Shown in pieces: positions 450 through 21,380 of a stretch of DNA of 64,000 bases. The notes under the pieces were generated by a model. The model did no database searches, had not been told where the DNA came from, and worked only from the letters and a program-made list of their open reading frames with translations. Every line of letters begins with the position of its first letter. Positions within the stretch are counted from its first letter, which is position 1. The DNA comes from Sorghum bicolor (lineage: Eukaryota; Streptophyta; Magnoliopsida; Poales; Poaceae). Location: the NCBI RefSeq assembly GCF_000003195.3, contig NC_012873.2:10377894-10441893 (forward strand). The letters are read 5' to 3'. The position numbers and the translations under genes were made by a program.

Positions 450-3400
450 ATGCCCACGCGTCTCCCTCTCCATCTCCTCCTCCTCCTCCTCCTTGCCGGC
501 GCCGCGCATGGCCACCTCGGCATCTCTTCTTCCTCCTCCACCGACGGCGGCGGCGGACTGCTCCTCCTGCTCCCAGCCGACAGCAGCAGTGATGACGATG
601 GTGCCGGCGGCGCCGCGACGAGGAGGACGGTCCTCCGGCTCCCGTCGGCGGCGGCAGGGGAGGAGGAGGAGGAGCCACCGCCGGAAGCATCCGCCTGCGA
701 GATGACGTACGGCTTCCTGCCCTGCACCGACACCGCGCCGGGGAACCTCTTCCTCGTCCTCGCCTACGGCTTCCTCATGTTCAAGGCCGCCACCTACCTC
801 TCCGCCGGCAGCGAGCTGCTGCTCCAGATCCTCGGCCCAGGCATCGTCGGCGGACTCTTCCTCCCCATCCTCGGCGCGCTACCCGACGCAATGCTCATCC
901 TCGGTGCGTATGCCTACTAGTATGTCTCTGCTTTCGTTCTAACCGCCGGCCGGCGCGCCGTGATTCTGATTCCTTGCCGTCCGCACCATGAGAATGAGAT
1001 CCGAGCCGCCCGGCACAGCCGCCGTCAACGCTTCACTAGCTAGTACTCTTCTGCTCATAAACAAAAAGTTCATGTTTGTCGGTTTCGAAAACCCGAAAGG
1101 TCATCAAATAGGGGTTAAGTGAAACCATGGACGTTATTGGATAATATACAGTGTCAGTGAGCACAAGCTCCATTAGCGTCCGACAAATACCTGCTCTGTT
1201 CTTCATGAAAAAAAAAACGTAGTCATATAGCCTTGTTTACTTTCAAAAAAACCCAAAAATTTTTAAGATTCCTCGTCACATCGAATCTTTAGACGTAGAC
1301 GAAAATAAAAACTAATTGCACAGTTTGGTCGGAATTGACGAGACGAATCTTTTGAGCCTAGTTAGTCTATAGTTAGACAATAATTATCACAAACAAACGA
1401 AAGTGCTACCGTGTCGCGAATTTTTTTTCGTTTGGCAAGTAAACAAGGCCATATGATAATAGCAACGAGATGAGCCGAGCATGCAACAGTGTTCACTGTT
1501 TAATACGCTTCTTTGAAAGTTCAGTATGGTCATGGCCTGTTTACTACTACTAGTACACTTCTTTTGAAAGTTCAGTATGGTCAAGGTTTGTGTGTACTTA
1601 TCACTATAGTACGCATCTTTGAGGTGTGTTATAACATGAAAATTCACTCAACTCTAGGAAGCGATCGATCGGTTACCTTTTTTTTTCATCTGATTTTAGT
1701 GCCTACAAACACTGTTCATCTGTTTCTCCACAACAATTGTACATCGACTTGATCTCATTGTACATGCAGATCCTTGACCTGTTGTTTTTATATGTTTCAG
1801 TCTCTGGGCTCTCCGGCACTAAAGAGGTTGCGCAAAGCCAGGTTTTGATTGGGATGGGCCTGCTTGCAGGTTCAACAGTCATGCTTTTGACCCTTCTCTG
1901 GGGATCTTGTGTTGTTGTTGGCAAATGTGATTTGTCGGAGAATTCAACTGCAATTGATTCTCGAGATACAAAAGGCTTCAGTCTTTTTGGTATGCTGGAT
2001 ATTCGCTGTGTTCTTCCTCATTTCCATTCTATTCAATTCGGACTAGATCTATATTTAAGGAACATCGTCATTTTAGTTCTTTTTTTAGAATTATCGCCGT
2101 TTTAGTTCAAGACAGAAACCATATATTAATCAAGTCTAACCAGGAAACAATAAATTTAGTTCAGTTTCTGCAACTATACTACAACTGCCTGTCTGTCAAC
2201 ATTTAAGAATTCTTTTGCATTATGTCCTTATAACATTTGCTAAATAATACCTTATGAATTTTTGCAGGCTCTGGTGTTTCTACTGATGTGCAGACCAGCT
2301 ATGCTGCAAGAATCATGGCGATATCTGTCCTTCCCTTTATTATTGTTCAGATACCCCAAATTTTTAAGCTCCACTCCGGTCATCGTTTGGCAGTCCTTCT
2401 TGGACTTATTGTTGCAGCTGTACTTGTGCTCGCCTATTGCCTATATCAGGTATTGTGCTTATCTCAGGAAAATTTGAACTCTACATCTTGGCAACTTCTT
2501 TAATTCAACATTTCCGTGTACAATTAGGGTTGTTAGAAATCGAATCACTGGATTGCTCACAATCATACTCACAACACGGGAATAAACACACAGGTAGAGA
2601 TGGGGGAAGAGAGAGCTATGTATTCACTTTCTTTCACTTCATCTTGTTCCTGGTTGTTCATGTTACAATGGTGAAAGGAGCCTCCTATTTATAGGAGAGG
2701 AGCCTGTACTTTGCTAGTGTGAAAGCTAAGACTTTTTCCTCCTCTTCATTTAATTGGCCACCACTCAAAGTCCCTTGTACACATTGCTTTTGGACTTTGA
2801 TTCACAACACTCCCCCTTGGCCAATTACATGTCATGTGTATGTCTCGTTAAAAAGTCCCCCTAAAAACCCAGTGGGAAAAAAGGGTAGGAGAAAAGAGTA
2901 CATCACATGCATTGCTTATGTTGCACCTGTCGCCTCGTTAAAAACCTTGCATGAGAAAACCCGGTGGGAAAAACTCATCAAAGAAAAAAGAGTACGACAG
3001 TTGATGTTCGAGTCGGTCTTCAGGACCGACTTGTGATCTTCAGGACCACGGTCATGGGTTATAATCTTTGGGGTTGGTCTCCCCCTAAACCCTACAACTC
3101 TCTAAGCCGCCTCACACTTGTTCCATGGACACACTTATAGAAGCTAGAGGTGGGTAGAGATTTTGTTAAAAGATCTGCGAGGTTATCGCACGACCTTGCT
3201 TGCAGGATATTTATCTCCCCGCTCTTCTGGAGCTCATGCGGATAAAATAGTTTTGGAGCAATATGCTTCGTGATATTGCTCTTGACATAACCCAGGCACA
3301 TCTGTGCAACACAAGCCACATTATCTTCATAGATAATGGTGGTGATGTCGGCGACGTTCAAACCACATGACTTCTGGATGTGATTGATCATTCGTCGCAA

Positions 3401-6400
3401 CCAAACACATTCTCGTGCAGCCTCATACAGAGCAATTCTCTCTGAGTGGTTGGTCGATGTGGCAACCAGGGTCTATTTCATAGACTGCCAGGAAATGGCT
3501 GCTCCACCACAGAGAAAGACAATACCAGTCTGTGATCTAGCTTTATGCGGGTCGGACATATAGCCAGCATCCACATATCCCACCATGGTTGGAGCTTGGT
3601 TCTTCGGGAACCATAGACCAAGATCTTGTGTACCTTGTGGGTACCTCAAGATGGTTTTGATGCCAGCCCAATGCCTCCTGGTTGGGGCAGTACTGTACCT
3701 TGCCAATAGCTTTACTGCAAACGCAATGTAAGGTCTAGTGCAGTTTGCAAGGTACATTAGTACTCTAATGGCGCTTAAGTATGGAATTTCGGGTCCCAAT
3801 ACTTCCTCATCATCGCCCTTTGGTCTAAATGGGTCCTTATCCGCTTCCAGGGATCGGACCACCATGGGGGTCTTAAGAGGGTGGCACTTACTCATATTGA
3901 ATTTTTTAAGTACCCTCTTAGTATAAGTGGACTGGTGTACAAACACTCCTTCAGGGAGGTGTTCGAGCTGCAGGCCCAAACTGAAAGGTCCTAATATGGC
4001 TAGAGGGGGGTGAATAGCCTATTTAAAAATTCTACAAACTCACTAGAGCAAGAGATTAGTAGATAACAAAGCGAAGCTTTTTGCTCTAGCTCTAATGGGG
4101 TGTTTGCAAGCCACCTATCCAACAATTCTAGTTGATATGAACACTGGGCACACAAGAGCTATGACACTACAAGCTACACTAGAGAACTATGCTACACAAG
4201 ACAAAGTAAGCAACTAAACTAATTACACTACTTTGCAGTAAGTAAATGAAGAGGATGAGATATTTATACCGCCGTGTGGGGGATGAACCAATCACCAATA
4301 TATGAACAATCAATCACCGGGAGAATGTCAACCAAACACAATTGAGACACCGATTTTTCTCCCGAGGTTCACGTGCTTGCCGGCACGCTACGTCCCCGTT
4401 GTGTCGACCAACACTTGGTGGTTCGGCGGCTAAGAGGTGTAGCACGAACCTCGTCCTCACTAGGACACCGCAAGAACCGACCCACAAGTGAGGTAACTCA
4501 ATGACACGAGCAATCCACTAGAGTGGCTTTTGGCACTCCGCCGGGGAATAAGCCCAAGAACCCCTCACAAATATCACCTTGATTGGGGGCGGACACAATC
4601 ACCAAATCCCCTCACCAATCAATAAATCCACAACCGTCTAGGTGACGGCAATCACCAAGAGTAATAAGAAATCCACAATTGCAAACACCACCTAGTGCCA
4701 CAAGAATGAAATCACAAAAGCACAACACTAGGGTTTCCTCAAATCCTCTCACCAATCAGCACCAAGCTATGGAGAAGGAGAGGAGAGGAAGGAGATGCAC
4801 TTGAAGCTCTCAGATCTGTCACTTGAGCTCAATCTCTCACTTGAATGGAGCACAAAGCTTAGGGAGTGAGAGAGGAGGAAGGGAGAGCTTTCTCTACTCT
4901 TTAGAAGAGCCACCGGAAGTCAGAAAATGTGTTCTATTCGAGTTGCCCCGTCAAAAACGAAGGGAACGAGTACTTATAGTGTGGCACCGGAAGTTCCGGT
5001 GCCTGGGACCGGAACTTCCGGTCTGACCAGATCTGATCGTTGGAGCCTCGGTCCAAGCAGATCTGACCGTTGTGAGAGACTCGGACCCATCGGAAGTTCC
5101 ACCGGAACTTCCGGTCAGACACCGGAAGTGAATCCTCACGCGCGCGGGCATGCGCAAAGGCTCCTATGCGGACTCCCGTTCATGGACCGGAACTTCCGGT
5201 TATGGACCGGAACTTCTGGTCATGGACCGGAACTTCCGGTCAGACACCGGAAGTGTTTTCTCAAACGCGAGCGCACCTGTCACAGCCCAACCGGAACTTC
5301 CTGTCAGGCTGACCGGAACTTCCGGTCAGGCACCGGAAGTACCACCGGAAGTTCCACCGGAACTTCCGGTCCTGCATTCTCAGCACCACCTCAAAACTTG
5401 TTTGGATGCTAACTTCTAGCTCCGAACTCCGAATTCGATGACTTGGACATTTCTGAAAGCTTACTCTGAGGGCTAAACAATCTATATGGATACTCAATCC
5501 AAATCATAATGGATCAAAGCAGTATTTCAATCTAAAAGTCATCCTAATGTCCGAAGAACACCGAAAAGCCTCTCTCTCTTCTCCAAGTTGATCAAAATCA
5601 ACTCCAACACCTTATCCTTTGCAAAAGTGCCAACACCACCAAGTGTACACCACCATGTGTATGTGTGTTAGCATTTCACAATCATTTTTATAGGCTTTCT
5701 CACGTCACTAAGCGCTAGGTATATGCAAATGAGACTCACACTTAGTGGCACTAGATAACCATTGCAATTAAAGATTTCCCCTCTTTATAGTACGGTTATC
5801 TATCCTAAATCCACTCACACCCACTAGGTGTCTTGAGTGGTAAAACAAAATGGCCCTAATAAAAATACCTTTGCCTTGAGCCAATTTTGTTTTTCTCTTT
5901 CTTCTTTTCCAAGTTGGAGCACTTGAATATCATCTTTTGGTCACCTCCATCACATGACCATCATCTAGCTCCATCACTTGGTGTGTACCAACCTATCCTT
6001 ATATTTCACTCATGACAAAGGTTAGTACACATAGGTTTCATCAATTATCCAAAACCAAACTAGGACTTTCAATCTCCCCCTTTTTGGTAATTGATGACAA
6101 CCTTTTCACAAAGATATTCAATAAAATTTTCTTGGATTCATGTTGCTTGCCCAAGCATTTTTACCATGTGCAAAGGTTATGGACAAGTTTCATAAACCCA
6201 GTTGCTCCCCATACATATGTGCTAAGAGTTTGAATTTGAAAGCTTGCACATATGCTTGAACAGGAAATATAGGAGTCAATTTCTACCAAATGATGCTAAG
6301 GTGTAAAGAATGGACCTTTGAAGCGTGATACCAATCGGAGTTGCCAATGTATACCATCCTTAGCACCATTAGTAACTAGACATTCACAAAGACTAGAACA

Positions 6401-9400
6401 CCTCGTGAGATCAACATTATAAACAAGGTTCTAGTACCACTTGTGAAAAAACTAAAAGTCTAGTTACACTACCTATGCATGCTAGTTTTTCATTTCAACA
6501 ATCAAACCTACAACTAGCATACCCCACACAAGCAAGGCATCAGAGAGAAAACTTCTAAAGATAAAGCAAATGCAAGCAAACATATGTGATGCACATTCAA
6601 ATGCAACATACAAGTTTATGAGCTTGCTCCCTCTACTTGTGTGATTCAAAATTTTAATTGATCCCCTTCTTTTATCATGTTACTCCCCTATCTATGTACT
6701 TCTCCCCTTTTAGCAAATCTTTGGGAAATTCTCTCCCCCTTTGTCATCAATGACCACAAAAGGTGAGCTCAAATTTTAGATAGGTTAGTGTGAGACCATG
6801 TGAAGTGAGATCATTTTCCCAAATTGGTCCAATCTAGACTACTTGCCTAAGATATTTAACTCGGTTTGATCCAAGGACAAGCTTCTTCACACCTCTAAAT
6901 AAGGGTTATCTTGTACCATGTTGAGTTAAACACTTATAGCTCATATTCTAGATCAAACACTAGGATTGCAAGCCCACAAACATGTCATATGCTACCACTA
7001 GATCAAGTCAAGCATAGAAGCAATAGTGGTACCATATAAGCATCAAATTCAATTGATTTTCATGAATGAGCCTAAGACATGTAAGGAATGACTAGATGCA
7101 CTAAGCAAGTCCTTAGCATAGGATGAATGACATGTCAAACAATTTTACCTTGCTTTGCTCAAAGGAGAGGCATGTCATATAATGGGGGTGCATCAACACA
7201 TATGAGAAGTCAAGTATGTTCAACTCATTCCTTAGCTTGCAAAACCTTTTCTCATCAAGTGGCTTGGTGAATATATCGGCAAGTTGATCATCGGTGCCTA
7301 TACTCTCAATGCAAATGTCTCCTTTTTGTTGATGATCTCTTATGAAATGATGGCAGACGTCTATGTGCTTTGTTCTTGAGTGTTGAACCGGATTGTTGGT
7401 GAGCTTCACTGCACTTTCATTGTCACATAGCAAGGGCACTTGATTGAAATTGATTCCAAAGTCCTTCAATGTTGCCTTCATCCATAGGATTTGTGCACAA
7501 CAACTACCAGAGGATCAGGGGCGGAGCCAGGATTTGAACATAGGGGGGGCCGTGCAAATCAAAAACAATCATGTGTGTCAAAATATTACATGACAAAGGT
7601 GTACATAGCACCAAAATAAATATTTGCGACAAAAAAGCAGAAAAAATAAAGAGAAATTAATTATTCTCAAGCCCCTAACCTTTACCTGATCAATCTATTT
7701 CTTTGGCCAGGAAAAGAATCACAGTAAAACAAGTAGTTAAACGGGGGCAAAATTAATTAGTACTAGATCCTAACATCAAATGACAAACAATCAGTTACAT
7801 ATCTTTTAGCCTCAGACAAGGCGATCACTTAAACGGGTAAAATGGTCATTTAAATAGAAGGTTAAACCAAAACACCATACCACTGTTAGTGTTTAAAAGT
7901 TGAGTACACGTACTTAATGACCATTTAGAATTTAGACGAATAATGATAGAAACATAGGAGATAAGAAAGATAATAGGAAGACTAATGCTAAATAATATAG
8001 ATCCCATTGTTGGAGATCAATTCAAAAGGATTCAACAAAAAAAACGCTGATTTTCAATTAACTAGCTAATTAGAGTGTGTGGTAGGAGACAAACTAATGT
8101 TTGATAGGCAATAATAAAAATAAAAAATATGAAGAAAATATTAGAAAGATCTAGATTTTATTTATATAAGAAACTATTAGAGATCAATATGAAATAAGAA
8201 TAAAAATCTTAGTACAGATAATATCATTATAACTAGTTAATTAGACAATTAAGCACCTAATTTAGAGTATGTATTAAGGGAGTTATGAGAAAGTTGGGGG
8301 GTGCCAGGCCCCCCTCAGCCCCCCCTTCCCTCCGCCACTGCAGAGGATGTAACTTTTCACAAAGATATTATAGATGTAACTTCTCTGCAGGAGGAAGTTA
8401 CTCAATCGGTTGAACCACATCCTTCCAAACTGTTTCAACCCATACAACGACCGCTGCAGGCGGACGCTAAACATGTTGCAATTTTGATTTGGTCTAGGGA
8501 TCTTGAGTCCTTCAGGCACTCATGTGGATTTCCGAATCAAGTGACCCATACCAGTATGCGGTCACAATATCCATCAACTGCATTTTAAGTTTATGTTAGC
8601 TGCCATAAGTATCAAATATCAGAATGTTTATGCCACTCATGGGAGAGTAAGTTTCATCATAATCGATGTCGGGTCTCTGCGTGAACCCTCATGCCACTAG
8701 CCTCGCTTTGTGCCATGTTTATTTCTCTTCAAGAGGCAGACCCATTTGCATCCTTCAGGGATGACTTTAGAGGTGTTGGGACTGCAGGCCCAAGAAGCCT
8801 CTCTTTCATAAAGCGAGCACAACTCTGCCTCAATTGCGGCTTTCCATTTGTCCCAATCTGAGTGCTTCTGGCACTCTGCCGTGGACTTTGGTTTGGATCC
8901 GGATCTATTGAGCCAACAATTTTTGAGGCAAAATATGTGTCGACAACGGTGGTCTTTCAATAATATGACTCTCCTGATTTCTCATAATTAGTGGCGATCT
9001 CCTCATGATCGTCCTCCCACTCATCGTGATTTCCCATAACGATTGAGTTGGGGCGTTCCGATCTTCCAATGCGATGGTGCACGCTTGACGCATTGTGATT
9101 TCCATCTTCAGGATGGTGTCCTTCAGGGACCTCCTCAACTTCAGGTTGAGTTGCCACTTTAGGGGCATTCTCGACTTCAGGTCGAGCTTCTTCAAACTGA
9201 TTCTTTAAATGATATAGGTGGCTCAAGACCTTGTCTACATGGACGTCTCCACGGAACCTTGTCTGAGCACCCAGAGGTCCCCCCCTCAACCTAGGATCAC
9301 GATGGAGACAATAGAGTTGGTAACCTTCAGGGATACCCGAACTCTCTCTGGCACATTTACTATAGGTAAATGTGACCTTGTCATTTTTCTAATCAGTGAA

Positions 9401-12400
9401 GGCATTTGGCAGCTCATTTGCACTAATTTGCAAATGTATAATTCTTTGAACTTCTGGTCCAGATTGACTAGTGTGTGGGTAGAAGGAATGCCTTTATTCC
9501 TTTTCATGCAATTTCCCGGCATTCTCCTAGATGCCTATCTCCCCCTAATGCTGAGAAATGCAATCAGCGTACCGAGCCTCATGAAGATCCCTAGTCATAG
9601 GCTCATACATCCCAACTTCTGGTGGGGTTTCTTTGGTGTACGCTGATATGGCGATACTGGCACTATATCGCATAACTTATACGCAGATGGGAAATACTTT
9701 CTTTCTCACACACTAGCCATATGGGGGATGTGCAGTTGACCTGAGTTGGATAAATTTTGCAGTATGCAATGCTGCATGGCCCCAACTGTTGGTTGGCAGC
9801 CTTTGATTTTGCAGCAATGGCCATACATTATCCACTTGATCCTTTTGATCAAGGACTCAACTAGGCCTCTTTGTGACTCATCCCTAATCTTCAGGAGGAT
9901 TGCCTAGTGATCAACCTTCCCTTTGCACGTGCGATGCAAATAAAATCTTTAGGGAAGTTTTTATGGCCAACAGAATTGATGATTTTCTCATCATATCCAA
10001 CCCAAGATGACCCAATTGGTCATGCCATATTTTTATTCCTCTAAAATAATATGGCTTTCATCGCAACATATCTCTTAGTGGGATTATGTAGTACGAGCCC
10101 GATGAAGGGAATACATCCACCACATACTTTGAATACTTATGGGAGAACTAGTGCGGCACTTCCGATGCCCATGATATGAGCATTGCTTCTGGCAATGGTC
10201 ATAATATTTCCATTTTCCTAGTCAATGTTTGGAAATATCTAGTTTCCCTTAATATTGGTGGTGTCACTGTCTGCAGGACAGTTTTCTACTTCAATCATAT
10301 GGGCTCCCACTGGTATGAGAATTTGGGGATTTAGCATGTGTTCAAAAGCCGAAAACCAACATTCATAACTTATTAAAAATGCTCTACAGGAACATGCATG
10401 GCCATCACTCAACATGCTATAAATGCTCTTCAGGAGCATGAATGGCCAAACTCAATTGGTGTATGTGGACATTGCATTGTGACTAACATGATATCTCAGG
10501 GATTAGCAGGTCCCTAGATATATTAAAGAAATTAGGAGAAGGTTATCCCCACTCACATCCACTTGGATGCTTTCACCATCTCCTTTCACGGTGACAAATG
10601 TGTCTTCCGCACTTCTGAGCTTCATGCTCAGTGGTGAGGTGGGATTTATGTTGACTCTCCTTGTTCTTGCTTCTAGAAGAACTTTGGCAGAGATCAACTA
10701 GGTGTTTTAGGGGCACGACAATTGTGGAACCCATGTTCCATGCCTCCACATCTAGAACAGCGATCCCGCTGCTAAGATGTTTTACCTGTGACCTTCTCAA
10801 ATCCGCTTTTACCCTTTTGGGATGACACCTCTTTTCCCTTCCATTTTTCCTTTTCACAGCCCTCTTTGTGGTTGCTAGAATTTCCAGCAACGCTAACATG
10901 TGCTTCGGGCACAGTTGCCGTGCAGAATGATCGTTCTCGAGAACCTCATTCTATTGCTTTTTGCAATCAATGGTACCGTTATCAGCCCATAGTACTTCAG
11001 GTACTAATATATTGCTGATATAGTACTATGTTGTCGGGATGGAAGGCATAAAAGAGTTTCCACGACCATATTTGTGTTAGTGAACTTCTGGCCACATAGA
11101 CGCGGTCTAGACACAATCTTGTATAAAGCAGAGTCGTACGCTGTTACAGACGTACAGTATTTAAAATGTAAGGCGATCCAATCATATTGACTTATGTTGG
11201 TTTAAAGCGGTCCTTCAGGGACTGCTATGGAACCATTAGATCGTCCTCATTTATATATTCAGACTTCAGGTCTGAGTGTAAATGGTAGTGCAATGCCTCT
11301 GCTTCATCAAGTATTGTGTGCTCATCATTGCCAGCTTCAGCCTGAACAATGGTGTAATCGAGGCACCAGCCGTCGAGTTTTCATCTCAACGTCAATCCCC
11401 AAGTGAGGTAGCTGTTGTCATTCACAGCTAGCTTCGCGAATCTTATTCTCGCAATGTCCGACCAATGACTAGTGAATGTTGGTTATGCGTAATCTTCAGG
11501 ATCACACATTCTTATATAGTCTTCGGGACTGTATTTCCCCAAATATCTCATGCATATAATCTTCAGGATCAAATGCGGTTCTCATAAATACTTGCATAAA
11601 TATGCAAAAATTAAATAATTGCAAGAAAGTAAATTGCAGTAAATAAATATGACTTGCAAACACGTAAAACTTGCATTAAAATAAACAGTCATGCCATGTA
11701 AGGATTTCAGGCCTTAATGATTTACGGGCTTCTGGCCACGTAGCGGTATGACATGGTGAACTGCAGGTTCACTACTTATTGTTTGCGGGCTTCGGATCAT
11801 ATGTGTGTGTGGCTTTTTAGCCTCTGTATATGGACCAAAAGTTCGTGAACACAAGGCTTCACGCCTTTGTCTAGCGGCTTCAGACCGTCTAGATAAGTGG
11901 TCCAGTGCACATAGATCAAAATAAAAATATCTTTGATTGTAATCCTGAAGATTACAATTAGGTGTAATCTTCAGGACTACACTTTTTATTTTCCGCATGT
12001 AATCTTCTGGATTACTTTTAATGCAATAAATAATTGCAGAAAATAAATAATAATGTGTTTTATTATTGTTATTATTATAGTGGGCTTCGGGCCACTATTT
12101 TGCACAAATAATAAAAATACGCGCTGTATCTTAAATGGGCAATTGGGCCAAATTCACCTTTTATGGGCTGGCCATATCGACCCAAATCAATCGTGACCGT
12201 CCATCACGATGGACGGCATAGATTCGTCCAGAGGTCATATAAATAGGGAAGGTAAACCCTAACCCTAACCATTTTCTTTCTCCTTTTCTCTCTCTACCCT
12301 ATCTTCTTCTTCAGAAAACAGGCAGAGGAGGAAGAGGGCACCGACGGCGCGGCCGGCCATGGGCGTCCAGCCCTCCCGGTGGCGGCCCGGTCGGCCAGGG

Positions 12401-15400
12401 GCGCGGGCGGCGCGGCCAGAGCGCGCGGGTGGCTGAAAGGTCCTTGTTTGATTTTGGTAATTGAGTGACAACTTAGGTGGACTAATAGTATTTATGTGAG
12501 ATACACATGAGATTAGTCCACAGGTGATTATGTGATGATGGAGGAGCTCATTGCATATGAGACATGACATGGAGTCATGCGACCAAGGTGGAGAAGATCA
12601 AGATGAGGCTTGGCTCGATGGACTGGTTGCAAGAGTGAAGGGCAAGTTGGAGGCTTTGAAGCGAGGGACCGCGTGTGACGGTGAAGCTTGAGCAAGACTT
12701 GGCGCCGATGGACCGAGGCAACGGTGAAGAGCAAGTGAGGTCAAGATCGATGAACCAATACGGTCACATGATGATATGAAGTGGATCATATCATTTGGTG
12801 ATTGGTTGGTGCATGTGTTGCATCAACATTGGAGGAGATGGAATGGAATGCGCAAGGCAAAGGTATAGCCTAGGACATTTCCATTTCACCGGTCATAGGT
12901 GTATAGAGAAGTTTATGACCGGATTTAGGATAGATGGCCGTACTATCAAGAGGGGCAAACTTGTTTGCATATCGGTCATCTAGTGCCACTTGAGCGATCT
13001 AACTTTACATACGTGTTAGGATCGAGTGGCGTGACAAGTTGAGAGGCTAACTCCTTTGGGAAAATGTTTGTGAAATTGCTAACACACATACACATGGTGG
13101 TATACACTTGGTGGTGTTGGCACATTTACAAAGGAGGTGGAGTTCCTAGGGTTGAGAGGGGTGTGGGTTCCTCTCTCCCTCCCGCCGAGCTTGTGAGGCG
13201 GAATTCGGCGCTTTTGAGAAAATTAAGTGTATATTTTCTATTGCGCCGATGGAAATTTTAGAGAAGTCGCGGGAGTGTTTTCTCACTCAGAAACACTCAC
13301 CGGACGCTGAGTGCGGAGGCACCGGACGCTAGCTTCAGAGTCCGGTGTGCTTGACCCTGCTAGGGTTAAGCACCGGACGCTCTGTGAGTGCGTCCGGTGT
13401 GAGGACGTTTTGTGACCCTCTCTGCGCATGGGTCCGGTGAGCACCGGTAGCGCTTAGCGTCCGGTGACCCTGCAGGTCTGCGGAGCTCTCTACGCACGGG
13501 TCTGGTGTGCACCGGACGCGTCCGGTGTGGACTAGTTGAGCGTCCGGTGGTGCTGTGTCAGGTGCGAGCGCGTGGTAGCCGTTGGCGGCAACGGTCGACT
13601 TCAAACGGCTAGTGACACGTGGCCGACACCTGAGCACCGGACGCTGGGGTTGAGCGTCCGGTGGCTCCCTGTGTGCGTCCGGTGCCCACGTGTTTTGCCC
13701 AGTGAAGGGGCAACGACTAGTTTAGCCCTTGGAGCTATAAATAGAAGTGGTGGCCGGCCTTGGCTGGTGCTGAGCACCCTTGGGACTTAGTGTCCATGCT
13801 TGGGGAGTGCTAGTGAAGTCTCTAACTCACATATGCTTGATAGTGATCATCCGATTGTGTGAGTGAGCAATTCTAGTGCGTTGCATTGAGAGATTGCATC
13901 GAGTGGCACTAGGTGTTCGTGTTGCAAGCAGGTGGGGCTTGTTACTCTTGGAGGTTGCCACCTCCTAGACGGCTTGGTGGCTTGTGACTCCGTCGAAGCA
14001 CGCAAGGAGATTGTGCGGTCTCCGGAGAAGAGATTGTGAGGGGTACGGTGCTCACCCCACGGGGATCGCGAAGAGCAACTCTAGTGGATTGCTTGTGGCT
14101 TGGAGGATCCCCATCTTGAGAGTGGATGTGCGGCACCCGCTGAGGGTTTGGCTTTGGAATGCCAATTAGCTCGTGATCCATCAAGTGGGTGTATCGCCAC
14201 AACGAGGACGTAGCTTGGTGGCAACCAAGTGAACCTCGGTAAAAATCACCGTGTCAACATTGTCTACTCTTCTCGGTGGTTTGCATTCGCTATACATGAG
14301 CTTGTATTTATATTCTTTATTTACTTGTTCTTGTGTAGTTGCTTTTGTAATTAGTTAAGCTTGTGTAGCTTGCTAGTTACCTTCTTGCTTGTGTAGCTAG
14401 AAGTAGTTCCCTTGCGTGGCTAATTCGGTTTGTGTAACCTTGTTAGTCACATTGCTTAGTTTGTGTAGCTAAGTAAGTTGCGCTCTCTAATTTGGCATTA
14501 GTTGCCTTGTTATTGAGCTTGCTAGTGAGCTTAGGCTTTGTGCGCTTTGCCTCACTAGTTTGTGTAGGAGCTCCCCCGGTTTGCAAAGTACTAGTTGCAT
14601 AGGTTTGTGTGACCTTGCTTCTAGAATTGGTTAGGTGAGCTCTTGCTAAGGTAGCACCTTGTTTTCTTGTTTAGGATCTTTTTAAAAGGTGCTAGAGAAC
14701 TTAGATAGAGGGGTGTAGTTTTGGCTAGACCGATAGTTTTAATTCCGCATTTGTTTCGGTTAGCCGGTGCGATAGTTTTTAAAAAGGACTATTCACCCCC
14801 CTCTAGTCCGCCATCTCGATCCTTCAGCGGCGCGGCCAGAGCGCGCGTCCCTGGCGGCTCGCGGCCCAGCGCGTGGCCCCGGTGCGGCCTGGCGGCACAG
14901 CGAGCCTGCCTCCCGCGACCCGGCCTCGGCGGCTCAGCGGTCACGCCCCTGCAGGGGGCGGAGTTTCGCGCGAAGGTGGGGCTGGAGGCGCCCACACGTC
15001 GGCATTCTTTCTCGTACGTCTTCAGGACGTCGGTGGCTCGGTCCGTCCTCACGCTCATCTTCAGGATGGCGGCGAGGTACTAGTGTGTTGTGCTCTGTGT
15101 ATTTGTTTGTGAATAAGATGGTACAAGCAGTGAGCATCAATTGAATCGATTTCCTACCTTCTTACCTTTAGCTCGGTCGAACTCGTGCTGATAACGTGTT
15201 AGAAATCGAATCATTGGATTGCTCACAATCATACTCACAACACAGGAATAAACACACATGGAGAGATGGGAGAAGAGGGAGCTATGTATTCACTTTCTTT
15301 CACTTCATCTTGTTCCTGGTTGTTCATGTTACAATGGTGAAAGGAGCCTCCTATTTATAGGAGAGGAGGCTGTACTTTGCTAGTGTGAAAGCTAAGACTT

Positions 15401-17330
15401 TTTCCTCCTCTTCATTTAATTGGCCACCACTCAAAGTCTCTTGTACACATTGCTTTTGGACTTTGATTCACAACAAGGGTGACTATTTTTCAAGTGGCTG
15501 AAACAAGCTCATTTCACACTATTCTATGCCCTTGGAAGTGCATCGATTGTGGCTGAAACTGCCTCAAACCATATGCAGTTTGGCTTTTGACTGATTGTGG
15601 CTGAAAATTAAGTTGGTTTTAAGCAAAATTGATATAATTGTTGTATGGGGTTTTATTGGGAAAAGATTGAAAAGGTTTATTCAACAAGATACTTGATAAA
15701 TCTAAAAATCGTCAATCTAGGAGAAATGTGGCTCCGCACCATCCAAATCCGACTAGGTTTTGTCTAGACCCTTCCTGCAACTTTTTATCAGGAATCCATT
15801 ACTGCTAAATTTCTGCGCTTCTGCAGTTGTGTCACTGACATTTTTATCAGGAATTCGTTTACTGCTAATTCCTGCGCTATTCTAGACTTCTGTTGCTGTT
15901 ACTACACTTTGGACAAATGTGCTTTCTGTAGTTGAATCTATGGTGTTTTTTTTTCCTTCTCAATAGATATCGATATTCCTTTGTCGAAGTGTCCATTTTT
16001 ATCTGCATTCTGTTTTTCATGACTGTCTGTATCTTTCTCAAACAGATCTTTCAGCCATGGATCCAGAGGAGGAGGTTAGAATATGCAGGACTAAAGCACG
16101 TAATGTCTGGAGTTCTAAGACATGCTCAGATGCACGTTTTTGGTCGTCTTCTTCATGAAGATGGAACACCGAATATACCTGTGATCGAGAAGTATGCCTT
16201 GACACCCACCTCATCTTTTAGCTGCTTTCACAAATGTGAACCTTTCAAAACCGAGATCCAAAAAAATAAATAAAATTGCAGGTTGTTTCATAAGATTGAT
16301 CTGGACAACGATGGAAGACTTGAACGCGGTGAACTGCAAGCTTTCATCATTGGTGTGAAGTTCGAAGATGTTGACTTGGATAGTAACCTAGCTGTAGATC
16401 AAGTCATGGCAGACTTCGATAGATCACATAATTTTGTCATTGAAAAGGGAGAGTTTATCGACGGGATCTTGAGGTGGCTAGAAGAAGCGAAACGCTCGGT
16501 GGTTACCTCCGGTTCCTACTCGAAGAAGTTTCTGCAAGATTTTCACACGGTACATTTTCAGTCCGAATGTTTATCAATGTATTTTGTTCTTCATGGGTAA
16601 TAGTTAAGTTGCATCAATCAACGACCTGTATTTTCTTTTTGCAGAGAACTAGGGATGAACATAATCTTCTGCTTGGAAATGATGATAACGATGTTGAAGC
16701 TATTGAAAATCCAACCTGGACGAGCTTTAAGGCCATTTCACTTTTACTCCTTGGAACTGCAATGGCAGCAGCATTTGCAGACCCACTTGTTGATGCTGTG
16801 CACGGTTTTTCAAACGCTACAAGCATCCCTTCGTTTTTCATCTCGTTCATTGCAATGCCCTTGGCTACCAATTCCAGTGAGGCTGTTTCAGCAATCATAT
16901 TCGCTAGCCGGAAGAAGCAGCGGACTCTGTCACTAACATTCTCTGAGGTATGTCTGTCAGCTGAATAAGTACCCAAAAAAATTGCATCTTTGTGAACACC
17001 TTTTGTTGCATCTCTGTCATAAGTTTCAGATATCCCCATGTGATTGTGTGCGATGCCATCCTTTTAATTAACCGCATGCAGGTCTACGGTGGGGTGACCA
17101 TGAACAACACGCTGTGCCTGGCCGTGTTCTTGGGCCTCGTCTACGTGCGGGGTTTGACGTGGGATTTCTCCTCGGAGGTCCTCATCATCTTCCTTGTCTG
17201 CACCATAATGGGACTCTTCACCAGCTTCCGGACAAACTTCCCACTCTGGACGTGTTTCGTGGCCTATCTGCTGTATCCTCTGTCCCTCGTCATCGTCTAC
17301 GTCCTTGACTACAAGTTCGGCTGGTCATAG
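450..17330 (+). CDS. NCL: EF-hand sodium/calcium exchanger-like protein (NCL), seven exons, 596 aa
   Basis: Exons: 450-903, 1801-1989, 2268-2449, 16046-16191, 16282-16549, 16645-16947, 17082-17330. All introns are GT-AG and the joined frame is open for 596 codons. I chose the ATG at 450, which gives a hydrophobic Leu-rich signal peptide. The first exchanger repeat (residues about 120-200) holds LPDAMLILVSGLSG and GMGLLAGS; the second (about 455-530) holds PLATNSSEA. Between them lie a canonical EF-hand loop at about 330-341 (DLDNDGRLERGE) and a poorer one at about 370-381 with Phe instead of Gly at position 6. This order is that of plant NCL proteins (Arabidopsis AtNCL, rice OsNCL), which exchange cations across vacuolar or plasma membranes and respond to Ca2+. 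Intron 3 is 13,596 bases, almost all of it a nested retrotransposon in antisense. Splice sites are inferred by eye. Confidence 0.92.
1231..1450. mobile_element. PIF/Harbinger-like MITE (CCTTGTTTA family) in NCL intron 1
   Basis: The ends CCTTGTTTAC and GTAAACAAGG are inverted repeats, and the interior has the hallmarks of the family seen about twenty times here (CACATCGAATCTTTAGAC, ACGAGACGAATCTTTT). It lies wholly within NCL intron 1. No clean target duplication survives. Confidence 0.75.
2531..2809 (-). repeat. 3' LTR of the intronic copia element
   Basis: This copy is 279 bp, the same length as the copy at 15197-15475, and differs from it by only a few bases. The near-palindrome CCTATTTATAGG near 2683-2694 supplies a TATAAATA box on the element's sense (minus) strand. 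A purine-rich tract on the minus strand immediately beyond it (2810-2820, CCAAGGGGGAG) fits the polypurine tract. Confidence 0.9.
3092..3979 (-). pseudogene. Copia reverse transcriptase C-terminus and RNase H, broken
   Basis: The minus strand encodes the end of copia RT from about 3979 (MGLQLEHLPEG, then KTPMVVRSLE) and, after a stop near 3472, RNase H with the family signatures EDNVACVAQM and TKHIAPKLFYPHELQ, ending NLADLLTKSLP. The stop falls between SWQSMK and TLVATSTN, where copia proteins normally have Gln, so it looks like a CAG to TAG change. The upstream part of RT was removed at 3982, where another element begins. Confidence 0.85.
3982..6071 (-). repeat. 3' LTR of the truncated Sirevirus-like element
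   Basis: It shares both ends (TGAAAGGTCCTAATATGGC and GGACTTTCA) and much of its length with the solo LTR at 45003-46937, and more distantly with the solo LTR at 12434-14826. The main difference lies in the GC-rich central block, where this copy has ACCGGAAGTTCCGGT-type palindromes. Confidence 0.85.
4985..5375. repeat. Cluster of ACCGGAAGTTCCGGT palindromes in the LTR
   Basis: About a dozen copies of the self-complementary core CCGGAACTTCCGG, or halves of it, lie within 390 bp, spaced irregularly and joined by TCAGACA or TATGGA spacers. Clustered LTR palindromes are known in Sireviruses; this motif could be a regulatory or protein-binding array. Confidence 0.85.
7113..7515 (-). pseudogene. 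RNase H remnant of the Sirevirus-like element
   Basis: The minus strand reads GSCCAQILWMKATLKDFG near 7499-7446, then LLCDNESAVKLTNNPVQHS, HIDVCHHFIRDHQQKG and QLADIFTKPLDEKRF, the usual copia RNase H order. It lacks the rest of pol and ends where the hAT element begins, so it is a non-functional fragment. Confidence 0.85.
7516..8340. mobile_element. Non-autonomous hAT transposon, 825 bp
   Basis: Terminal inverted repeats CAGGGGCGGAG and CTCCGCCACTG are flanked by a perfect 8-bp duplication CAGAGGAT (7508-7515 and 8341-8348), the target size of hAT transposases. It holds no transposase frame. The left flank is Sirevirus-like RNase H and the right flank is the first copia's RT, so it landed on an already rearranged junction. 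Confidence 0.9.
8341..9289 (-). pseudogene. Copia RT and integrase-RT hinge of the first element, broken
   Basis: The minus strand holds the acidic hinge between integrase and RT (about 9289-8957, with PEVENAPKV, QPEVEEVPEG), the RT start (WKAAIEAELCSLYE, VIPEGCKWV, KRNKHG at about 8870-8700) and the later RT motif SLYGLKQFGRMWFNRLSNF near 8460-8400. The pieces are in different frames with stops between them, so no protein can be made. The RT motifs after NRLSNFLLQ are lost at the hAT junction. Confidence 0.8.
10503..10899 (-). pseudogene. Copia gag nucleocapsid remnant with a CCHC zinc knuckle
   Basis: On the minus strand 10759-10718 encodes a perfect CX2CX4HX4C knuckle (CSRCGGMEHGFHNC), the RNA-binding motif of retrotransposon gag. 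It is preceded by a Lys/Arg-rich stretch, and the surrounding frames are interrupted. Its place between the 5' LTR and the hinge/RT fragments fits the order LTR-gag-pol on the minus strand. Confidence 0.75.
12434..14826 (+). mobile_element. Solo LTR of a Sirevirus-like copia, nested in the first copia
   Basis: The 2,393-bp segment starts TGAAAGGTCC and ends GATCCTTCA with no internal retrotransposon sequence. It is flanked by GTGGC (12429-12433) and GCGGC (14827-14831), a 5-bp duplication with one C-to-T difference. Its inner end (CTATTCACCCCCCTCTAG) matches the reverse complement of the LTRs at 3982 and 45003, so it is the same family in the opposite orientation. Solo LTRs arise by recombination between an element's two LTRs. 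Confidence 0.87.
13270..13690. repeat. GCGTCCGGTG / CACCGGACGC array in the solo LTR
   Basis: The decamer GCGTCCGGTG or its complement CACCGGACGC recurs more than ten times in both orientations within 420 bp. The same motif fills the matching part of the solo LTR at 45003-46937 (about 45925-46400). The related LTR at 3982 has a different palindrome there. Confidence 0.85.
15178..15194 (-). other. Primer-binding site region of the intronic copia
   Basis: Directly inside the 5' LTR on the minus strand is TTATCAGCACGAGTTCG. Its position and TATCAG core fit a priming site, but the match to initiator tRNA-Met (TGGTATCAGAGC) is partial. Confidence 0.5.
15197..15475 (-). repeat. 5' LTR of the intronic copia element
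   Basis: This 279-bp copy pairs with 2531-2809 and differs by only a few bases. It carries the sense-strand TATAAATA box near 15350-15361. It is followed by the right copy of the AGGGT duplication and then by unaltered NCL intron. Confidence 0.9.
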
Positions 17331-20639: not shown

Positions 20640-21380
20640 TTTGTTTAGAGTGTTCAGCGGAATCTGACTCAGCTCACTATAATCGTGAGCTGACGGCTGT
20701 CGAGATTAGGTTCACTAGAGCCCACAACATACCAAAAGCCATAGGCCTCACTCAATGTAAAAAATTAACTCCTCCACCATTAATTGTCAACGTGAAACTA
20801 AACTTAACAATCTCCCCGCTCATACAAACATACCAAAAGTCATAGACCTAAGTCAACACAAAAGACTAGCTCTCTACCATAAATTATCCATGTGGGACTA
20901 AATTTAAACTTACCAATCACCCGTCACATAACTCTTCACATTATGTTCACATTGGATCCAACTCTTCACATCACATTACACTGTTTTGCGCTCCCCCACC
21001 CCCACCAATAATTAACAATCTCCGTCACATATTGGACCAACTCTTTACATCACACTACACTATGTTCACATTGGATACAACTTTTCACATCACACTACAC
21101 TATGTTGCGCTCCTCCACCATCAACTATCGATGTGGGACTAAAATTAACAACACTACACATGTGATCCGTGAGATTTTCTTAGTTTTTCGACCGACTCGC
21201 ATTGCCACAAGCTAGCGCTCATCAGGCACAGGTCCACCGGAGCCCACAACATAGCTAAGTCTTGGGTCTAACTCAGCCCAAAAGACTGATTTAATAGGTG
21301 AGGATTGTCTCGTCTTATATGTTGTGCTCTTCCATCATCAATTATCGATGTGAGATTAAACTTAACATTGTTTCCCTAAT
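20640..21380. repeat. Degenerate direct repeats, intergenic
   Basis: Short units recur several times: CCACAACATA with CATAGGCCTC/CATAGACCTA, CAACTCTTCACATCACA, and ATGTGGGACTAAA. They do not form an even tandem array and have no coding frame. This may be the decayed remains of an element, but I cannot name it. Confidence 0.55.

Follow-up and report, generated by a model that had tools for sequence, protein, structure and literature searches.

Sense-strand CCNGAAG hairpins along a Sorghum copia retrotransposon family as candidate dispersed packaging signals

Why should a single retrotransposon copy carry some two dozen small hairpins that share a five-base loop and differ in their stems? The question is raised by a copia element in a stretch of 64,000 nucleotides (nt) of Sorghum bicolor DNA (NC_012873.2, positions 10,377,894 to 10,441,893; hereafter, the window), in which an earlier note, made from the letters alone, had listed 24 such hairpins and read them as protein-bound RNA structures, as packaging or silencing signals, or as the trace of a process that writes small palindromes. 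Comparison with related elements makes it well supported, at the level of sequence, that the hairpins are selected elements of the sense RNA with one recognition element. Among the suggested readings, RNA structure stands, packaging (which we infer) is the best fit, and palindrome writing is disfavored.

One loop on many stems

All 24 listed hairpins are present at the positions claimed, to within one base (the hairpin placed at 10991 begins at 10990 and has a stem of 6 base pairs [bp]), and the loop tally is borne out, with 20 plus-strand loops TTCAG, TTCTG or TTCGG, two TGCAG, one TTCAC and one inverted CTGAA. Because the element is encoded on the minus strand, the loop in its RNA is CNGAA (N, any base), as had been proposed, within a core CCNGAAG. 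When the shuffle check was run (200 dinucleotide shuffles of the 5489 nt of the element), the 20 perfect hairpins having a TTCNG loop and a stem of at least 4 bp compared with a mean of 0.155 and a maximum of 2, and the 14 with stems of at least 5 bp with a mean of 0.04 and a maximum of 1. In an exhaustive scan of the window, 20 of 20 perfect TTCNG hairpins (stem ≥4 bp) lie inside the element; the opposite-strand loop CNGAA forms six hairpins, one of them within the element. Outside the element, the two strands have bare cores in near-equal number (18 versus 17). The claim that all stems differ holds for most sites, the exceptions being about six per copy with the stem core TAATC/GATTA or near it, which may, from their sequence, be duplicates. 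The sites lie in gag, hinge, reverse transcriptase (RT), RNase H and non-coding parts as listed, the gag part being degenerate in the window copy and its close relatives.

Two sites depart from the consensus in an instructive way. At 11853-11867, where the window copy has GTGAA in sense, 11 of 14 aligned relatives have CTGAA. At 11936-11958, the 7-nt core is inverted in the window copy (CTTCAGG in sense), and relative L036 has CCTGAAG there; a sense scan of the other loci found no other CTTCNGG with a stem longer than 3 bp, and the inverted core looks like a flip between palindromic arms. In the hinge, units are spaced 15-18 nt apart. At least 16 in-register triplets of cores at 18-nt intervals, which resemble this array, are among the matches listed, on contigs C1-C3. 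The pattern of two cores 18 nt apart lends no support on its own, with 262 matches genome-wide compared with 794 for the reversed control.

Relatives were sought in 709 Mb of the Sorghum genome, which gave 43 long terminal repeat (LTR) matches and 24 retrieved regions. Seven full-length relatives (L035-L041) carry 42-45 sense and 0-1 antisense cores, with 19-30 perfect hairpins each (stem ≥4 bp); L031 has 47 sense and 1 antisense cores and 26 hairpins, and L043 has 40, 2 and 18, respectively. Partial elements (L034, L042, L044, L045 and L047) entered the site alignments and column tests where alignable, and all of them but L034 were scored at 4-15 hairpins, compared with 0-1, both strands summed, in the 6 of 20 regions holding a solo LTR or only flank (L032, L033, L046, L048, L049 and L050). 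The aligned site groups show that the relatives mostly share the same hairpin sites, and about half or more of the ∼35-45 sites per copy form perfect hairpins. A pattern search of viral contigs and genome contigs matched 12 and 30 stretches, none of which encodes a relative. Spread to further grasses is seen at the protein level only: Gag relatives reach 83% in Panicum virgatum, and peptides of the hinge and RT hairpin sites are present in metagenome proteins. As a separate observation, the LTRs of L038 are only 70-73% alike to those of L031, L034, L043, L045 and the window element, and its internal pieces from 2200 onward are mostly 84-97% alike to theirs, though coding-dead.

A query with an RNase H piece scored 150 matches of 2646 candidates, from which a sample (L052-L064) was chosen. 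In the autonomous relative L051, 88% identical to the query piece, gag is open over 360 codons and pol over 1210. L051 carries 34 sense and no antisense cores (mean spacing 157 nt), spread through leader, gag, pol and 3′ untranslated region (UTR); 21 form hairpins, compared with a mean of 0.09 and a maximum of 2 in 100 shuffles. The proposed look at other copia families found fewer hairpins in L053 (15 sense and 0 antisense cores, 5 hairpins) and none in L052 and L054 (3 and 0, and 0 and 1 cores). A tree built from 24 RNase H pieces (midpoint-rooted, L034 dropped) splits L053 and the hairpin clade from the other families with support 100/99, and L053 would be the sister of the hairpin clade if that root holds. 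The 3′ UTR hairpin pair is extra sequence relative to the hairpin-free families; L053 has three different hairpins in its 3′ UTR, one with the loop TCGAA. The 3′ UTR pair is present in two of ten short 3′ pieces, L060 (where one core reads CCTAAAG) and L063, both of which cluster with the hairpin clade; the other eight are without it.

The repeated unit of the sense RNA is thus C-[CNGAA]-G closing a stem of free sequence, usually of 4-8 bp. A C-G pair closes 75 of 76 CNGAA hairpins (stem ≥4 bp) of L051, L036 and L038, and the 21 perfect hairpins of L051 have 16 different 4-bp stem ends. In 481 cores pooled from 12 related elements, whose related copies repeat in the counts, the counts of Watson-Crick pairs from the second to the seventh position away from the loop are 395, 353, 332, 307, 243 and 149, compared with 121-137 expected, so that pairing is near chance at the seventh position; at the eighth it is again above (210 versus 121). 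A search of L051, L038 and L053 against 4227 Rfam families gave no match at the gathering score.

Hairpins in coding sequence and in coding-dead copies

The open reading frame (ORF) pieces of L051 hold 17 hairpins, compared with a mean of 1.07 and a maximum of 4 under synonymous-codon permutation (n = 300); in the outgroups, L053 has 3 versus 0.34, and L052 and L054 have none. Cores of L051 occupy codon phases 0/1/2 in numbers 3/0/3 in gag and 10/2/8 in pol, and are found at 8 non-coding places as well. The Arg (CGN) that two of three and three of three outgroups have at sites 1987 and 2014, respectively, is replaced inside the hairpin by a Ser (AGY) that completes the core, and site 4934 reads Trp-Phe-Pro-Lys-Asn-Gln, the outgroups having Tyr-Phe-Pro-Lys-Asn-Asn, Phe-Phe-Thr-Lys-Asn-His and Phe-Tyr-Ser-Arg-Asn-Gln. 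The hinge array is mostly extra sequence: in the codon alignment, its units are mostly missing from the outgroups, the last being common to L053. Inside hairpin footprints, identity to L052/L053/L054 is.56/.61/.50, compared with.71/.73/.68 elsewhere, in a test of pol only, where the values may be depressed by the hinge, which is included although it aligns poorly.

The closest relatives of the window element no longer have intact genes. Set against L051, the nine long copies L031, L035-L041 and L043 each carry 5-12 stops and 24-35 insertions or deletions (indels) whose length is not a multiple of three; L045 and the window piece Wb have 34 and 29 such indels and 7 and 8 stops. For every one of these 11 rows, 20-28 disabling differences recur in at least 5 rows, and the numbers are lower for L034, Wc, L060 and L063, whose rows are short or partial; among the partial elements, this comparison drew on L034 and L045. 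The LTR pairs of the family are 92-99% alike, and 5-bp target duplicates flank 9 of 9 pairs read. Since independent insertions with target duplicates have broken ORFs in common, as in a non-autonomous copia family moved in trans, these sequences indicate that the window family is one that kept moving in trans after gene loss.

What such copies have conserved was examined by aligning 300-nt pieces to L051 and taking only columns with at least 6 copies. Fixed differences from L051 number 0/84 at the loop positions C, G, A and A, 5/229 in stems, 6/21 at the free second loop base and 335/3675 elsewhere (Fisher p = 1.3e-7 with stem and loop taken together and.0097 for the free base). Private changes, most of which postdate insertion, are similarly frequent throughout (.0214 per cell in loops,.0172 in stems,.0285 at the free base and.0162 elsewhere), and gaps occupy 4 of 3901 hairpin cells versus 1375 of 42855 other cells. 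Fixed stem changes are rarer than those elsewhere in former gag (1/20 versus 111/557), in the former integrase region (1/32 versus 130/1008) and from hinge to RNase H (1/118 versus 77/1773); in the 3′ UTR (0/24 versus 2/100), there are too few changes. In the covariation check, 8 types of both-sided stem change preserve pairing and 1 disrupts it.

Structure and surroundings of the window element

The element is minus-strand copia DNA at 2531-15475, with an LTR pair (279 nt each, 97% identical) and AGGGT at both ends, as a copia insertion with target-site duplication has, and is broken up by nested insertions (Table 1). The Gag, pre-integrase and RVT_2 domains of copia are found in relatives, namely in L051 (gag and first pol quarter, the latter also with an rve match under its cut-off) and in the RT piece of L038 (RVT_2, 5e-30). 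In the window copy, 3473-4018 matches RVT_2 with E 0.005, under the cut-off, and a Pfam search of 3092-3472 gave no match.

Table 1. Features of the copia element in the window
Feature	Position	Strand	Basis
3′ LTR	2531..2809	-	LTR-pair comparison; target-site duplicate AGGGT at 2526-2530
Presumed polypurine tract adjoining 3′ LTR, AAGGGGGAG in sense	2810..2818	-	Sequence reading
Hairpin, 8-bp stem, plus-strand loop TTCAG, 3′ UTR	3011..3031	-	Scan; comparison of relatives' 3′ UTRs
Imperfect hairpin, sense core CCTGAAG, 3′ UTR	3033..3050	-	Sequence; alignment with relatives
RT end and RNase H, two open pieces	3092..4018	-	ORFs; Pfam
Hairpin, 4-bp stem, TTCTG, RNase H	3221..3233	-	Scan
Hairpin, 6-bp stem, TTCGG, RT-RNase H	3597..3613	-	Scan; codon alignment
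Hairpin, 4-bp stem, TTCAG, RT	3946..3958	-	Scan; site and codon alignments
Central internal region, degenerate from gag to RT, with a nested insertion on either side	8400..12330 (borders approximate)	-	
Hairpin, 5-bp stem, TTCAG, RT	8749..8763	-	Scan; site alignment
Hairpin, 6-bp stem, TTCTG, RT	8860..8876	-	Scan; site alignment
Hinge array: hairpins 9102-9116, 9118-9130, 9134-9150, 9170-9186 and one degenerate unit between	9102..9186	-	Scan; alignments
Hairpin, 6-bp stem, TTCTG	10181..10197	-	Scan
Hairpin, 6-bp stem, variant loop TGCAG	10267..10283	-	Sequence
Hairpin, 6-bp stem, TTCAG	10423..10439	-	Scan
Hairpin, 5-bp stem, TTCGG, former gag	10899..10913	-	Scan
Hairpin, 6-bp stem, TTCAG, former gag	10990..11006	-	Scan
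Hairpin, 4-bp stem, TTCAG, former gag	11210..11222	-	Scan
Hairpin, 6-bp stem, TTCAG, former gag	11259..11275	-	Scan
Hairpin, 4-bp stem, TTCGG	11518..11530	-	Scan
Hairpin, 6-bp stem, variant loop TGCAG	11756..11772	-	Sequence
Hairpin, 5-bp stem, variant loop TTCAC (sense GTGAA)	11853..11867	-	Sequence; site alignment
Hairpin, 9-bp stem, core inverted in window copy	11936..11958	-	Scan
Hairpin, 6-bp stem, TTCTG	11999..12015	-	Scan
5′ leader	14820..15196 (border approximate)	-	Two hairpin sites align with relatives
Leader hairpin, 5-bp stem, TTCAG	15016..15030	-	Scan; site alignment
Leader hairpin, 4-bp stem, TTCAG	15056..15068	-	Scan; site alignment
5′ LTR	15197..15475	-	LTR-pair comparison; target-site duplicate AGGGT at 15476-15480

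The element lies upstream of plus-strand exons matching the sodium/calcium exchanger domain Na_Ca_ex (16444-17330, the second match under cut-off), and probably sits in an intron. Inverted arms of 71 nt, 89% complementary, occur at 5606-5676 and 13074-13144, one in each nested insertion, and the two insertions may, judging from these arms, be related elements in opposite orientation. One of them has many CACCGGACGC / GCGTCCGGTG words at 13280-13720. An open minus-strand piece at 7113-7514 gave no Pfam match; we take it to resemble the copia RNase H of another, nested element. The window also holds a repetitive-looking open stretch at 4870-5412 and two 72-nt direct repeats, 85% alike and 119 nt apart, at 20938-21128.

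What may read the hairpins

That the hairpins are sense-RNA structures is supported by four lines of evidence: the strand asymmetry of the cores, the conservation of stem and loop around a free second base in a coding-dead family, the both-sided stem changes, most of which preserve pairing, and the use of all three codon phases. The ∼35-45 redundant sites along the RNA could present closing pair and loop to one protein, most likely the element's own Gag, which in L051 has gag_2, one zf-CCHC zinc knuckle and a basic stretch. Acting jointly as dispersed packaging or assembly signals, they would bring the RNA into particles, and coding-dead relatives, the window family included, would be packaged by the Gag of autonomous members. 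Zinc knuckles favor an exposed G. Gag is the first candidate because the hairpins are confined to one clade among the families sampled and are retained in copies for which cis signals suffice, and because retroviral Gag can, according to the excerpted account in PMC8096270, read looped-out purines. For the proposal that the redundant hairpins are packaging signals read by Gag, also in trans, the sequence evidence leaves the chances about even; the fuller proposal, in which a hairpin code runs over the whole element and overwrites coding, Gag reads it collectively and dead relatives persist as parasites by keeping it, is somewhat more tentative.

Several observations weigh against a Gag-read signal. 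Leader stems are no more conserved than the rest (2/23 versus 4/179), covariation among close copies alone is sparse, and one-sided stem changes, many of them private, break pairing in 43 types and keep it (by G-U or the like) in 28. G-U pairs exceed A-C clearly only next to the loop (49 versus 2, in the pooled, non-independent set), and in single elements the difference is weak or absent (7/5 in L051, 12/12 in L040 and 6/8 in L053). The L051 Gag has no special domain when set beside the Gags of hairpin-free relatives. It is 39% identical to those of L052 and L054, where pol quarters are 62-81% identical, but Gag usually changes fast, so this divergence is weak support for Gag as reader. In mouse mammary tumor virus (MMTV), there are two non-redundant sites in the 5′ region (PMC8096270, in part), compared with the ∼forty hairpins here.

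The ordinary look of this Gag would suit a different reader. A host RNA-binding protein, or another step such as export, translation control, stability, silencing escape or localization, could read the selected hairpins, a possible though not probable alternative that the same evidence of selection and conservation fits nearly as well and so a further point against Gag; a free base beside fixed C, G, A and A also fits protein-read loops in general. The confinement to one clade among the sampled families speaks against it, and the retention of hairpins in coding-dead copies that use trans proteins points first to the element's own cycle. If the reader is not packaging-related, the feature may stand further from known systems. 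As for chance, it is ruled out as the origin by the dinucleotide shuffles and the synonymous-codon permutation.

Template switching in reverse transcription at CCNGAAG might write functionless palindromes; the window core flipped between 9-bp arms indicates that arms can recombine, and some stems with a common core may be duplicates. We consider this improbable: it is disfavored because loops and stems were conserved before insertion, yet take private changes like other DNA, and because outgroup Arg codons gave way to Ser at two sites; the second loop base is also fast where its neighbors are frozen, and the cores are one-stranded. A DNA-level function, as cruciforms or protein-binding sites, is very unlikely, for although perfect small inverted repeats are present in the DNA, the nearly invariable sense orientation in L035-L041 would be needless for a cruciform, and arms of 4-6 bp are short for one. 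Least credible is a peptide signal of Pro-Glu repeats from whose codon use the hairpins follow. The hinge array does encode such repeats, and the Pro-Glu phase is used by 10 of 20 pol cores and 3 of 6 gag cores of L051; however, other cores lie in other phases and at the 8 non-coding places, which rules out the peptide as sole cause, the permutation that preserves the peptide takes the hairpins from 17 to 1.07, and coding-dead copies retain them.

Turning to known systems, the open-licence literature (subscription papers being outside the scope) yielded no description of such hairpins. Smaug/Vts1 recognition elements are hairpins with the short loop CNGG and thus, like ours, a loop beginning C-N-G, but the fourth loop base in the CCNGAAG cores is A and not their G. 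Mitochondrial GC clusters are copies of a single unit, with a common stem sequence. The copia hairpins instead share loop and closing pair while most stems differ, as the 16 stem ends in L051 attest, unlike mobile palindromes, of which these clusters are an example with many small palindromes in one genome (PMC4478555, in part). Closest in kind, by analogy, would be the packaging signals dispersed along the genomes of single-stranded RNA viruses and along the pregenomic RNA of hepatitis B virus, for which the excerpts of PMC6281560, PMC8677749, PMC7612645 and PMC3593212 describe many genome-wide stem-loops of variable sequence round a short shared motif, and PMC6281560 suggests that similar mechanisms may occur with Gag-like proteins. 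The window family likewise has many stem-loops spread along its RNA and one short recognition motif on variable stems, as expected of such signals; it differs in being a plant LTR retrotransposon with a strict consensus (closing C-G, CNGAA), many perfect stems and changed outgroup residues.

Among retroelements, Gag selects the element's RNA in Ty1 and Ty3 (PMC4974528, PMC8396678) and in MMTV, whose Gag needs a looped-out purine stretch for packaging (PMC8096270), as far as the excerpts of these papers go, and none of these excerpts mentions a loop motif repeated many times; a CCUGAAG string in the last is part of a laboratory mutant and is chance here. The closest case of packaging in trans is the barley copia pair BARE1/BARE2, where the family so packaged cannot produce Gag itself and conserved packaging/dimerization signals are invoked; the consulted portion of that account (PMC3735527) does not mention tens of loop-sharing hairpins along the RNA, such as the family here has.

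Whether packaging can proceed via many dispersed weak signals is debated for RNA viruses. In this case, evolution seems to have done the experiment itself: beside related hairpin-free families stands a clade that acquired ∼forty hairpins, and a coding-dead branch still conserves the RNA signal. This could explain the continued mobilization of non-autonomous retrotransposons, and CCNGAAG hairpins, in sense only, provide a signature to be looked for in grass genomes and particle RNA.

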